Part shown: positions 10,618 through 62,180 of the stretch, one piece after another
Layout of the letters: every line of letters begins with the position of its first letter
Position numbering within the stretch: the stretch's first letter is position 1
Translations under genes and position numbers: made by a program
Source of the DNA: Cryobacterium sp. N22
GTDB lineage: Bacteria; Actinomycetota; Actinomycetes; Actinomycetales; Microbacteriaceae
Direction: 5' to 3'
NCBI RefSeq assembly: GCF_002929555.1
Contig: NZ_PJJP01000031.1
Coordinates: 28,042-92,041 of the forward strand
DNA length: 64,000 nucleotides
Notes under the pieces: generated by a model
Database searches by the model: none
Told to the model about the DNA's origin: nothing
The model's input: the letters and a program-made list of their open reading frames with translations, nothing else

Positions 10618-10720
10618 GGTTCGTGCAAGGTTGCCGGGCCGTGGCGTATTCCCGATCTCATCCGCGGTTCTGTGCCGCCGAGGGGGCCGGCGGGGTGGCG
10701 GCGGCGGCTCGATGGTGCTG

Positions 10721-10780
10721 CGCGGGGTAGGCGCCGCTATGCGGGTGGCGCGCCACCCGCAGACCGGCGCCTGGCCCGCA
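10721..10780. repeat. 60-bp palindromic repeat, copy 1
   Basis: Core GCGGGTGGCGCGCCACCCGC at 10741-10760 with outer arms GGCGCCG...CGGCGCC and ...CCCGCA. It lies between the divergent starts at 10617 and 10886, almost exactly centred. The right arm has AGACCGG where other copies have ATAGCGG. Confidence 0.9.
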
Positions 10781-10885
10781 CAACGGCCCTACTGCCCCAT
10801 ATAGCGGCGCCCGACCCGTGCCGATTGAGGAGGCTGCGCCGGGTCGTTAACCGGCCGAGGCCCCACACCCTGCCAAGCTGAGGTC

Positions 10886-17792: not shown

Positions 17793-17898
17793 GGCGTTCC
17801 CTTCGTTGCGAAACCGAGCACTTCAGACGCCTTCACTCGTGTCTACCGCCTGGGCGAGCTGGCGTCAATTGCGCCGTCGCGGATGAAGCCCGGCGGTG

Positions 17899-17958
17899 CG
17901 CGGGAGCCGCGCCGCTATGCGGGTGGCGCGCCACCCGCATAGCGGCGCCTGACCCGCA
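17899..17958. repeat. 60-bp palindromic repeat, copy 2
   Basis: The most regular copy in its inner part: GCCGCTAT + 20-bp core (17919-17938) + ATAGCGGC is a perfect palindrome, with CCTGACCCGCA on the right end. It lies between the divergent starts at 17792 and 18023. Confidence 0.92.
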
Positions 17959-18022
17959 CAGCTCGCACGCGAGGTTCGGCGGGCCCTCGCTGCCCCGCCG
18001 ACACCCGCGGTACGCTCCATTC

Positions 18023-25527: not shown

Positions 25528-26082
25528 ATGATCCCCATCTCCTCGCTCGACGACCCGTGGCCATCGACCGTGGCGCCCACCGTGCACCTCGTGCAGTTGA
25601 GCCAGGTCACCATCGACGCCCTCGCCCAGGAGGACCTCGACCTGGCCAACGAGCAGGCGGCGGTGGAGCTGAGCCCCTTCTTCGTTGAACGGGCCAACGC
25701 CAACACCTGGCGCTACCGCAGCCGCCAGCTCGCCGCTACACCGGCCGCCGCCAGCTGGATCACCCGGGTCATCTACGACCCCACCCGGCGGCTCGCTGTC
25801 GGCCAGTCCGGCTACCACGGCCCTCCGGATGACACCGGCATGGTGGAGGTGGGCTACGCCGTGGATGCCGCGTACCGGCGGCAGGGCTACGCCCGCGCCG
25901 CACTCACCGCGCTACTCGAACGCGCCCGCATCGAGCCGGCCGTCACGGTGGTGCGGGCCACCATCCGCCCCGACAACCTGCCCTCGCGCGCCCTCATCGC
26001 CCAGTTCGGCTTCGTCGAGGTGGGCGAGCAGTGGGACGACGAGGACGGCCTGGAAACCATCTTCGAGTTGCCCGTCGGCTGA
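25528..26082 (+). CDS. GNAT family N-acetyltransferase
   Basis: An acetyltransferase of 184 aa. The acetyl-CoA segment is VEVGYAVDAAYRRQGYARAALTALLE (R-R-Q-G-Y-A-R/A), followed by VRATIRPDNLPSRALIAQFGF, the family N-x-x-S/A-x-x-x-x-x-x-x-G-F segment. It resembles RimJ/RimL-type or small-molecule N-acetyltransferases. The start at 25528 gives a polar N-terminus; no strong Shine-Dalgarno is visible (AAGGA lies 8 nt upstream of ATG). It precedes the 19-bp unit array. Confidence 0.82.
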   Translation: MIPISSLDDPWPSTVAPTVHLVQLSQVTIDALAQEDLDLANEQAAVELSPFFVERANANTWRYRSRQLAATPAAASWITRVIYDPTRRLAVGQSGYHGPPDDTGMVEVGYAVDAAYRRQGYARAALTALLERARIEPAVTVVRATIRPDNLPSRALIAQFGFVEVGEQWDDEDGLETIFELPVG

Positions 26083-26112: not shown

Positions 26113-26389
26113 CTCGCGGCACTGCTTTGTTCTCGCGGCACACCTTTGTTGCGGCGGCACGTGCTCTAACCTGTGCCGCCGAGGACAACACCTGCCGCGG
26201 AGAACGACATCTGCCGCGACACTCGTTGCGCACCGCCGCCCCGCCCACTCTCGTGGCGCGCGATAGTGCTCGTGGCGCAGGATAGTGCTCGTGGCGCAGC
26301 ATATCGCCCGCAATAACCTGCGCCACCACCGCCAACCTGCGCCACCAAAAGAACCCGCGCCACGAGAACAAACCTGCGCCACGACACAC
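26113..26389. repeat. array of 19-bp units in direct then inverted orientation
   Basis: Block A: direct units starting with CTCGCGGCAC at 26113, 26132 and (GCGGCGGCAC) 26151, then inverted units with GTGCCGCCGAG, CTGCCGCGGAG and CTGCCGCGAC near 26174, 26192 and 26211. Block B: CTCGTGGCGC at 26250, 26269 and 26288, then AACCTGCGCCAC (or AACCCGCGCCAC) at 26315, 26334, 26352 and 26371. The step is 18-20 bp throughout, and the inner bases vary. In each block the inverted units can pair with the direct ones to give a long hairpin. No open frame of note uses it. The role is unknown. Confidence 0.85.
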
Positions 26390-26586: not shown

Positions 26587-27879
26587 ATGACGCCTCCCGC
26601 CCGCTTCGCAGAACGCACCGCAGACCGCCCCGATGTGACCGTGCGTCGCGCCCGGTTCGCCGTGGCCGTGCTGTTCTTCACGAACGGCGCCCTGTTCGCC
26701 AACCTGATCCCCCGGTATCCCGCGATCAAGTCCGAGCTCGGGCTCAGCAACGCCGAATTCGGTTTCGCCGTCGCCGCGTTCCCGCTCGGCGCCCTCATCG
26801 CCGGGCTCGCCGCGGGCATGCTCATCCGCCGGTTCCGCTCGTCCCGGGTCGCCGTGGTGTCGACGATGCTCACCGCGGTGGGCCTGATCCTGGCCGGAAT
26901 CGCGCCCAGCTGGGCGGCCCTGGCCGCCGGCATCTTCCTGGCCGGGGCGATGGACTCCATCACGGACGTCGCCCAGAACTCGCACGGCCTGCGCGTGCAG
27001 CGGCTCTACAAACGCTCCATCCTCAACTCCTTCCACGCGGTGTGGAGCATCGGCGCGGTCACCGGCGGACTCCTCGGCGCCGCCGCCGCGCAGCTCGACA
27101 TTCCGCGCGGCCAGCACCTCATCGTGTCCGCCGTCACCTTTAGCCTGTTCGCCCTGTACAGCTACAGGTTCCTCCTGGCCGGACCCGAGCCTCTCGAACC
27201 CGAAGCCACCGCCCCGGAACCGCACGCCGACACACCCACCCGCTCCCCCGCCCGGTGGGGCAAGTGGCTGGTGCTCGGCGCGCTCGTGGTGATCGCCGCC
27301 TCCGGCGCCGTCGTCGAGGACGCCGGCGCGTCGTGGTCGGCCATCTACCTCTCCGACGCGCTCAGCGCATCCGCCCTGGTGGCCGGGCTGGGCTTCATCG
27401 CCCTGCAGGGCATGCAGTTCATCGGCCGGCTACTCGGCGACGGTCTCGTCGACCGGTTCGGCCAGCGCGCTGTGGCCCGCACCGGCGGTGCCATCGTGTT
27501 CCTGGGCATGGGCACCGCCCTGGCCTTCCCGTCGATCCCGGGCACCATCGTGGGCTTCGGGCTGGCCGGCTTCGGCGTCGCCACCCTGATCCCGGCCGCG
27601 ATGCACGCCGCAGACGAGCTGCCCGGTTTCCGGGCCGGCACCGGCCTCACCATCGTCGCCTGGCTGCTGCGCCTGGGCTTCCTGTTCTCGCCGCCCATCA
27701 TCGGCGCCATCGCCGACCTCTCCCAGCTGCGCTACGGGCTGCTCCTCGTGCCCGTGGCCGGCCTGCTCGTGGTGTTCTTCGCGCCGGTGCTGGCCACCCG
27801 GGTGCACGGCCGGGCCGCGGATGCCTCCCCCGCGGACAACACGGACCTCACCCCAGCGCCCGCAACGACGGCGCCCTGA
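26587..27879 (+). CDS. MFS transporter
   Basis: An inner-membrane transporter of 430 aa with 12 hydrophobic segments. The loop after the second segment is GMLIRRFRSSRVAVVS, a degenerate loop 2-3 motif, and a later one is GDGLVDRFGQRAVARTG. The first segment reads FAVAVLFFTNGALFANLIPRYP, which is typical of the FucP/YbjJ-like branch annotated as sugar or drug transporter. A weak AGAAAG precedes the start. The substrate is unknown. It lies downstream of the repeat array. Confidence 0.85.
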   Translation: MTPPARFAERTADRPDVTVRRARFAVAVLFFTNGALFANLIPRYPAIKSELGLSNAEFGFAVAAFPLGALIAGLAAGMLIRRFRSSRVAVVSTMLTAVGLILAGIAPSWAALAAGIFLAGAMDSITDVAQNSHGLRVQRLYKRSILNSFHAVWSIGAVTGGLLGAAAAQLDIPRGQHLIVSAVTFSLFALYSYRFLLAGPEPLEPEATAPEPHADTPTRSPARWGKWLVLGALVVIAASGAVVEDAGASWSAIYLSDALSASALVAGLGFIALQGMQFIGRLLGDGLVDRFGQRAVARTGGAIVFLGMGTALAFPSIPGTIVGFGLAGFGVATLIPAAMHAADELPGFRAGTGLTIVAWLLRLGFLFSPPIIGAIADLSQLRYGLLLVPVAGLLVVFFAPVLATRVHGRAADASPADNTDLTPAPATTAP

Positions 27880-38855: not shown

Positions 38856-39436
38856 TTGTGTTCGTCCTTTTCCTGAGCCTCGCGGGCGCCTCGGGCGCTC
38901 ACCGGCCGTATCTGCTGTGTCGGCAATCGTCTCTTCACGTTAGGTCGGCGTGAAACCGGCCCGTCACCGTTCGAGCGACTGTTCGCCTTGCGTTTGTCTG
39001 CTGTACATCAGCGGATGCCGTGGGGCACGCCGCCGGTCGAACCCTCGGCACCCGCGGCATGGCCGGCGGGTTCGCGGAGACCCAGCGTCACCCGCACCCT
39101 CGGCGCCTGATCGTCATCCCCGGTGTTATTCCTGCAATACGAGCGACTCTGCCCATTTTTTGTCTCCCCAAAACGAATTGCGTATCCCCACGTTATGGGG
39201 TGGATGCGGGTTCTGTATGTCCCCCTAAAAGAGGACCCGGGGGTGAGTGTCGTCGGGGGTGTCGAGGTATGCGGGCGATGCGCCGCTATGCGGGTGGCGC
39301 GCCACCCGCAGAGCGGCGCCTGACCCGCGCGACGCCCCGCCAGCATCCGTTGGCTCATCGCCCCAGGGGCTAGTGTCGGTGGCACCCGAGACCATGGGGC
39401 TTCGCGCATCGTTGAACCCCTGCCAGGAGGCACCGG
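38856..39436. other. 581-bp intergenic region with an AT-richer patch
   Basis: A divergent gap between the importer operon and the amidohydrolase-like gene. It holds repeat copy 4 (39270-39329) and an AT-richer patch (39120-39235), including GCCCATTTTTTGTCTCCCCA and CCCCCTAAAAGAGGACCC; I see no open frame with support. Regulatory sites for the iron operon probably lie near 38860-38960 but no recognisable box was found. Confidence 0.5.
39270..39329. repeat. 60-bp palindromic repeat, copy 4
   Basis: Core at 39290-39309 with CGCCGCTAT on the left and AGAGCGGCGCCTGACCCGCG on the right. It lies between the divergent starts at 38855 and 39437. Confidence 0.9.
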
Positions 39437-42397: not shown

Positions 42398-42456
42398 GCC
42401 GTGCCGAGCAGTGCCGGTCCCCGATCCCCCACGCCCGATCGACCGGAATCACGGTA

Positions 42457-42516
42457 TGCGGGGTAGGCGCCGTTATGCGGGTGGCGCGCCACCCGCATAA
42501 CGGCGCCTGGCCCGCG
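42457..42516. repeat. 60-bp palindromic repeat, copy 5
   Basis: Core 42477-42496. The inner arms are CCGTTAT and ATAACGG rather than CCGCTAT and ATAGCGG: a paired change that keeps the hairpin. It lies between convergent genes (42397 and 42593). Confidence 0.92.
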
Positions 42517-42592
42517 CGACACCCCGGAGCGGGCATCCGGCACACGCGCCACCCCTCGCAGCCGAGCCCGAGGCCGCCGCGCGGCCTTGGCC

Positions 42593-45198: not shown

Positions 45199-45274
45199 GG
45201 CAACCCCTCGAAGGCAATCAAAGTTGAGTCACCTCGAAGCTAGCGCCCGACGGCGCGAGGTGCCAGCAGAGGTG

Positions 45275-45334
45275 TGCGGGGCAGGCGCCGCTATGCGGGT
45301 GGCGCGCCACCCGCATAGCGGCGCTGCACCCGCG
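45275..45334. repeat. 60-bp palindromic repeat, copy 6
   Basis: Core 45295-45314; TGCGGGGCAGGCGCCGCTAT on the left and ATAGCGGCGCTGCACCCGCG on the right. It lies between the divergent starts at 45198 and 45387. Confidence 0.92.
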
Positions 45335-45386
45335 CAGCGCAGATCGCGCGGCTCGCGGCTCGCGGCTCGCGGCTACCATCCACAGC

Positions 45387-55810: not shown

Positions 55811-55938
55811 TGTTCCGACGATACTACGGAGGCGAAACCCCCCACAACGCGGCACCGGGCCGAACGACTCCCCCCATGCCATACTCGCCGCCGATCGCCC
55901 AGGACGCCCGGGACGGGCTCAGTGCGCCCCGTACGGCG

Positions 55939-55966
55939 GAATGCGCCCGCTATAGCGGGCGCATTC
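55939..55966. terminator. perfect 28-bp palindrome, terminator-like
   Basis: GAATGCGCCCGCTA-TAGCGGGCGCATTC, a perfect inverted repeat without spacer, 54 bp downstream of the secreted protein stop (minus strand). No T-run; it may act as terminator of that gene or be another repeat element. Confidence 0.5.
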
Positions 55967-56019
55967 GGCCAGACGAGGCGCAGTCGCGCCGAACGACGCG
56001 CAGGGCACGCCCCGCAGCG

Positions 56020-60550: not shown

Positions 60551-60618
60551 GCCGCCGCGGGTGCCCGCGCCCGCCCGCTCCCGCCCGTGGCCGCCCGTGG
60601 TCTGCGCCAGGCGCGGTA

Positions 60619-60678
60619 TGCGGGTCAGGCGCCGCTATGCGGGTGGCGCGCCACCCGCACAGCGGCGCCTTGCCCGCA
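60619..60678. repeat. 60-bp palindromic repeat, copy 7
   Basis: Core 60639-60658, arms TGCGGGTCAGGCGCCGCTAT and ACAGCGGCGCCTTGCCCGCA. It lies in the gap between two same-strand genes (60550 and 60850), immediately followed by a decayed copy. Confidence 0.9.
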
Positions 60679-60688
60679 GAACGAGGTA

Positions 60689-61845: not shown

Positions 61846-61898
61846 CCATGCACCGCAGCCGCACCCCACCGGTCGCCTGACACCCGCCGACTGAGCTG

Positions 61899-61958
61899 CG
61901 CGGGCCACGCGCCGCTGGGCGGGTGGCGCGCCACCCGCCCAACGGCGCCTCACCCGCG
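61899..61958. repeat. 60-bp palindromic repeat, copy 9
   Basis: Core 61919-61938. The arms are CGCCGCTGG and CCAACGGCG instead of CGCCGCTAT and ATAGCGGCG: the AT pair next to the core has been exchanged for GG/CC in both arms (one further C-A mismatch). It lies between two same-strand genes; the remaining bases to 62180 show nothing else. Confidence 0.9.
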
Positions 61959-62180
61959 CACCGCAAGAAACGCCGTTCGGCCAGGCGTCTGGCCCACAAC
62001 GTGACTCCTGGAGAGTGGGCGTGAATGAGTGGCCCTCCTCGTGATCCTCCGGGCCGAGTGGATGTCGGCAGACGACGTCGCCGCGGCCCCGGTGTCGGCG
62101 GACGTCCTCGACAGTCCCCCAGGTGGGCCACCCTAGGCTGAGCCCATGCAGAGCGTCATCGTGCCCCGGGACCAGAGCTG

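Follow-up and report, generated by a model that had tools for sequence, protein, structure and literature searches.

Dispersed dyad arrays with a 19-bp period in Cryobacterium as candidate recognition sites of an AbiEi-type winged-helix protein

The stretch of DNA analysed here, called the window, covers 64,000 nucleotides of the genome of Cryobacterium sp. N22. An intergenic repeat region is found at positions 26114-26384. The gene upstream encodes a GNAT acetyltransferase (25528-26082, plus strand; Pfam PF13302, E 5e-16), and the gene downstream encodes an MFS transporter (26587-27879, plus strand; Pfam PF07690, E 1e-25). The repeat region is composed of two dyad arrays, blocks A and B. Block A starts with three direct units (26114-26161, plus strand), whose cores begin at 26114, 26133 and 26152 and read TCGCGGCACT, TCGCGGCACA and CGGCGGCACG, with a step of 19 bp. 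A 10-bp centre (26162-26171), also present in the A-type copies elsewhere in this genome, separates them from three inverted units (26172-26219, minus strand; cores at 26172, 26191 and 26210). Block B contains three direct units of the form TCGTGGCGCR, likewise at a 19-bp step (26251-26298, plus strand; cores at 26251, 26270 and 26289), a centre of 20 bp (26299-26318), which is shared by all B-type copies, and four inverted units (26319-26384, minus strand; cores at 26319, 26338, 26356 and 26375). The two blocks thus represent a 10-bp-centre and a 20-bp-centre class, respectively.

The arrangement was evaluated with a score that ignores the core sequence and compares four 10-mers at a step of 19 bp and a centre of 10 or 20 bp (maximum 60). 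Block B reached 56 and block A 46. When the whole window was shuffled 30 times by codon blocks, no value exceeded 41, the maximum reached, and control steps of 15-23 bp in the real sequence gave 36-45. An earlier reading of the sequence alone (the sequence-only reading) had described three direct and three inverted units in block A and three direct and four inverted units in block B, and this count is confirmed. The step of 18-20 bp given there can be narrowed to 19 bp, with a single step of 18 bp in block B. Its view that the region is neither a CRISPR array nor an ordinary tandem repeat is also supported. A CRISPR array needs repeats in one orientation and unique spacers, and was rejected, as the units here occur in both orientations, form a dyad and are separated by spacers of 8-9 bp between cores.

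Eight more elements with the 19-bp geometry, but with other cores, are located in the window and had been overlooked before. Six belong to the TGCGGG family: 10717-10784 (step 19, centre 10; score 47), 17895-17962 (score 50), 39266-39333 (score 44), 42453-42520 (score 48), 45271-45338 (score 50) and 60615-60682 (score 50). The element at 61895-61962 (score 51) has a core of the GCGGG family, and the one at 55919-55986 (score 47) has the core TGCGCC (ATGCGCC). The latter core is the same as that bracketing a gene of the same genome (contig C17, position 52063), a paralogue of the gene family described below. The seven other elements (10717, 17895, 39266, 42453, 45271, 60615 and 61895) carry the core (C)TATGCGGG. 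Nine such elements were counted on the 151-kb contig C38, whereas samples from the rest of the genome, about 690 kb in total, contained only two; no cognate gene for them was found on contig C38.

The sequence-only reading had suggested a genome search for the units, and this search revealed a dispersed family instead of local noise. The genome of strain N22 harbors about seven B-type and about six A-type arrays, including the window locus, and all of them are intergenic. An exact match in Cryobacterium sp. 1639 agrees with its placement in Cryobacterium (Microbacteriaceae). At three loci, an A-type array adjoins a B-type array (window 26114-26384; C29:77929-78179, locus L002; C36:114039-114370, locus L004), which suggests that an element already present is where a new one tends to arrive. 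When 57 Cryobacterium genomes were searched with a pattern of two B-core units, 15 gave a match. The version with the 10-bp centre matched in 25 of the 57, with 10-40 copies in twelve genomes and no matches for the control. About 25 copies of the element are present in a genome of another genus (G060). An order-wide search of 396 genomes with the GGCGCA version returned no real match outside the genus, because it is the core and not the geometry that changes.

Indeed, the step is constant at 19 bp, and the core sequence varies between species. In an unbiased histogram over all fetched loci, the centre spacers measured only 10 and 20 bp, plus whole 19-bp units. The spacers between cores are free to vary in sequence but fixed in length. 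Elements are about 68-190 bp long with two to six units per arm; the combinations seen are 3+3, 4+3, 3+4 and 4+4, with up to five or six units per arm elsewhere. The arms appear homogenised within an array. In the elements of genomes G305 and G307 (loci L188-L256), the outer units read TCGCGGCGCA and the inner units AAGCGGGCGCA, so that the consensus differs between outer and inner positions; several species have just one deviating inner unit. Absent spacing conservation or strain-specific noise had been named as grounds against a functional role. Here, the spacing is kept and the family is dispersed.

The elements are located between genes, for the most part where 3' ends converge. For 65 elements from three genomes (G305, G307 and G060), 33 were located at convergent, 26 at tandem and 6 at divergent junctions, and none in genes. 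The other junctions of the same loci (n=82) comprised 12 convergent, 47 tandem and 23 divergent ones. The elements are also polymorphic. A comparison of close strains, likewise proposed in the sequence-only reading, uncovered presence/absence and unit-number polymorphism at the window site. The site is empty in the close relative G280 as well as in G315 and G340, it carries block A only (four forward and three reverse units) without block B in G350, and it is occupied by a GGCACT-type array in G334. No excess of flanking direct repeats, as expected from target-site duplication, was detected in 99 elements. Many orthologous elements are common to G305 and G307, so the spread is not fast.

Across species, loci could only be aligned through one gene, which sits between two arrays. 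Its product has about 330-410 residues and contains an AbiEi_4 winged helix (PF13338 up to 2e-9; PADLOC AbiEi models up to 4e-16). The C-terminal region has the motifs GEFDGxxKY and EKRRED and resembles DUF559/PD-(D/E)XK proteins. The residues E223, D255, E266, D268, E291 and K292 are invariant in 31 proteins, and DUF559 matches are weak (E 0.02-0.15). Given this invariant pattern (E, D, ExD, EK) and the weak DUF559 matches, the protein is probably a nuclease. A sequence search of the PDB gave no relevant match, and no homologue was found in viral contigs. Three homologues turned up in a plasmid collection, in plasmid-labelled records that carry core chromosomal genes.

The main subfamily of this protein is clearly separated by score from its paralogues and is encoded in about 40 of the 57 Cryobacterium genomes. 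Elements were searched de novo at the gene loci, using four 10-mers at a step of 19 bp. At least one element was detected at 25 of 30 main-subfamily loci, with elements on both sides at 16; none was detected near the gene at the remaining 5. When steps of 14-25 bp were compared around the gene, 19 alone stood out. The flanking cores are species-specific and include GGCGCA, AGCGCA, GGCCCA, GGCACG, GCGTG and TGCGCA. Paralogue loci gave a similar picture. Forty of them were fetched regardless of their flanks, and elements within about 500 bp were counted: 27 had an element, 15 had elements on both sides, and none was detected near the gene at 13. Here the cores were TGCGCC, CAACTGTTGC, CGAGAGTCGC, GCGCGGG and others. 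At the paralogue loci, 45 element matches were counted near the gene. The more distant flanks, 116 kb in all, contained 2 and the 25 kb inside the genes 0; control steps produced 0-3 matches.

The gene itself varies in its surroundings. Its site is empty in G314, where homology resumes 3 bp past the outer edge of the array. In G302, the flanks are unchanged but the gene between them has the opposite orientation, and in G060 it is bracketed by two identical elements. In G350 (locus L357), the gene is apparently split, with two elements on each side. The association extends to another order: in Tsukamurella, one homologue has a 78-nt repeat with a step of 19 on each side, and the two repeats are 88% identical. 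A second Tsukamurella homologue (L384, 2286-3696) has 131-nt repeats on both sides with GGTGGGGGA motifs and without the 19-bp dyad geometry; these are perhaps another element type. In strain N22 (G000), the gene is located on contig C20 (110249-111355), with a block-B-type array 113 bp upstream, on one side only. Its neighbours, read by eye, are genes for a LacI regulator and a sugar ABC transporter.

The core found at the gene matches that found in the rest of the genome. In all six genomes with GGCGCA at the gene, GGCGCA elements number 16-40 and GGCCCR elements are absent; in all eight with GGCCCA at the gene, GGCCCR elements number 35-75, with two GGCGCA elements at most. At least 20 elements with GGCGCA or GGCCCR cores were counted in 19 of 40 gene-bearing genomes versus none of 14 gene-less ones. 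The protein tree branches in line with the cores. In these comparisons, phylogeny confounds gene presence and core type with species; the paralogue result, obtained within one genus, is independent of such tests. Four genomes (G314, G324, G327 and G335) have elements without a main-subfamily gene, hence elements can outlive the gene or be served by paralogues. Block B corresponds to the genome's own gene on contig C20, with its B-type array on one side. Block A corresponds to alleles of relatives such as G340 and G334, which have GGCACG at the gene.

Taken together, blocks A and B are best explained as dispersed extragenic elements that serve as arrays of cognate duplex-DNA sites for the AbiEi-type winged-helix protein with a DUF559/PD-(D/E)XK-like domain, a reading to which we assign a probability of about 0.7. 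It draws on the observed geometry, dispersal, gene bracketing, core matching and polymorphism, and on a pairing of gene and array that was established statistically. Of the functions suggested in the sequence-only reading, a protein-binding array is the best-supported option. The fixed 19-bp step, the 10- or 20-bp centre, the variable spacers, the independent units and the bracketed cognate winged-helix gene would all fit such an array. Free spacer sequence, fixed length and unit independence are what marks sites that are recognised one by one at a set spacing.

The proposed mechanism would be as follows. Two to six recognition sites, one every 19 bp, would face a similar number of inverted sites across a centre of 10 or 20 bp, and monomers may bind them cooperatively from both sides of the dyad. 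REPs are thought to be spread by TnpA-REP. In the same way, the array could be spread by its protein, perhaps through cutting and the provocation of copying repair. Slippage may then alter the number of units, trimming or extending the arrays. The result would be a REPtron-like pair of a DNA-binding and probably nucleolytic protein and the array that it recognises, the array being dispersed in the genome. The inverted repeats to which AbiEi and Rv2827c bind have spacings of 3 and 13 bp, 10 bp apart (PMC7319586), a precedent both for a dyad and for spacing that shifts by 10 bp.

In another explanation, the AbiEi-type protein represses its own gene and has its regulatory sites in the dispersed arrays, which would be operators of a regulon with no role in mobility. 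AbiEi proteins are indeed autorepressors that bind inverted repeats (PMC7319586), and the array in strain N22 is upstream of the gene. Nevertheless, the elements avoid divergent, promoter-rich junctions (6/65 versus 23/82) and favour 3' ends. They also flank the gene downstream, and the sites are polymorphic between relatives. The operator explanation is therefore considered unlikely.

The preference for convergent junctions (33/65 versus 12/82) and the absence from open reading frames would also suit RNA hairpins acting as bidirectional terminators or as stabilisers of mRNA 3' ends between convergent genes. Block B has a predicted fold of -65.6 kcal/mol (z -6.5). The long cruciform or hairpin envisaged in the sequence-only reading is thus possible as a fold, but arm pairing is not what has been conserved. 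The match between arms within an element is no better than between elements of the same genome (G305 and G307, n=41; G060, n=20; 20-bp-centre class, n=22), and the arms are alike because each unit resembles the unit of its species. Compensatory pairing, striking by eye in single elements, was discarded after a within-genome permutation showed none; a pairing signal appears only when several species are pooled, via their species-specific consensus. Conservation acts on each unit separately, as it does on protein sites. Furthermore, the centre is fixed at 10 or 20 bp, yet hairpin loops tolerate change. There is no U-tract rule, one gene family is bracketed by these same elements, and orthologous sites are empty in close relatives. 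A search of Rfam returned no match at the gathering score and only sub-threshold chance matches, and a terminator scan gave two weak sites on the minus strand versus 0.6 expected. RNA hairpins are an improbable explanation, and transcription termination may be a side effect of the arrays. More generally, the case is a warning against taking every intergenic repeat that looks like a hairpin for a structure in RNA.

If the arrays had arisen neutrally, through slippage and template switching during replication and with no partner acting in trans, this would account for the varying unit number and the homogenised look of the arms, but not for an identical geometry that recurs with unrelated cores beside one gene family or for a roughly 60-fold enrichment near the gene over the far flank. 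As a full explanation, slippage is very improbable; it probably explains the changes in unit number (2-6 per arm), and neither the dispersed copies nor the fixed centre. Sites for chromosome segregation or organisation (parS-, matS- or SBS-like), also suggested in the sequence-only reading together with a replication site, would be dispersed, multi-copy and of fixed dyad geometry, but numerous, lineage-specific elements whose core changes between species, which are gained and lost between close relatives and which form several unrelated families within one genome make this reading the least credible.

The pairing of array and protein gives a partner, and thus a testable role, to a large actinobacterial family annotated only as "AbiEi family antitoxin domain-containing" or "hypothetical". 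On a wider scale, we tentatively propose, at somewhat less than even odds, an undescribed and widespread class of actinobacterial elements, in which each AbiEi-type winged-helix/nuclease gene has a private core "address" in 19-bp dyad arrays, disperses these arrays and diversifies them in step with the protein. Since each paralogue has its own core at a fixed geometry, nature would here offer a code that links winged-helix sequence to DNA address and that genome sequences suffice to read.

Several known systems share features with the elements described here. DUF559 and Vsr-like PD-(D/E)XK proteins resemble the bracketed protein in the GEFDGxxKY and EKRRED motifs and through weak DUF559 matches, but in the literature searched no known member has a repeat family as its partner. 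MITEs with subterminal transposase sites are also short, internally repeated, non-coding, dispersed and polymorphic, and their autonomous gene is bracketed by the same ends. In contrast to MITEs, the 99 elements have no target-site duplication, each single element is a complete dyad, and the protein is not a known transposase. AbiE type IV toxin-antitoxin systems have an AbiEi-type winged helix and inverted recognition repeats as well, with spacings of AbiEi and Rv2827c (3 and 13 bp) that differ by 10 bp (PMC7319586). However, an adjacent AbiEii/DUF1814 toxin was not seen among the neighbours read by eye at the strain N22 locus, the sites are dispersed throughout the genome and flank the gene on either side, and the protein has a nuclease-like C-terminal domain.

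The closest likeness is to REPtrons, in which the cognate gene is bordered by its own elements, is mostly single copy and has gene-specific elements (PMC8266576). Here, too, the elements are dispersed, extragenic and palindromic, with none in open reading frames, and the cognate gene is bordered by the same elements, occurs mostly as a single copy and has elements specific to it. On the other hand, the protein combines an AbiEi winged helix with a weak DUF559 match (Pfam, PADLOC) and is not of the HuH/Y1 (RAYT) type, and no conserved flank is present outside the core, unlike the GTAG/CGTC tag of REPs. The element is a dyad of many units with a 19-bp period and a length of about 68-190 bp, where REPs form a hairpin of 20-40 nt, and its arm pairing is not conserved. 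Membership in the REP/RAYT family was rejected on account of the differing protein and tag. The gene and its arrays would be a second way, unrelated to the first, of arriving at the REP/RAYT arrangement.
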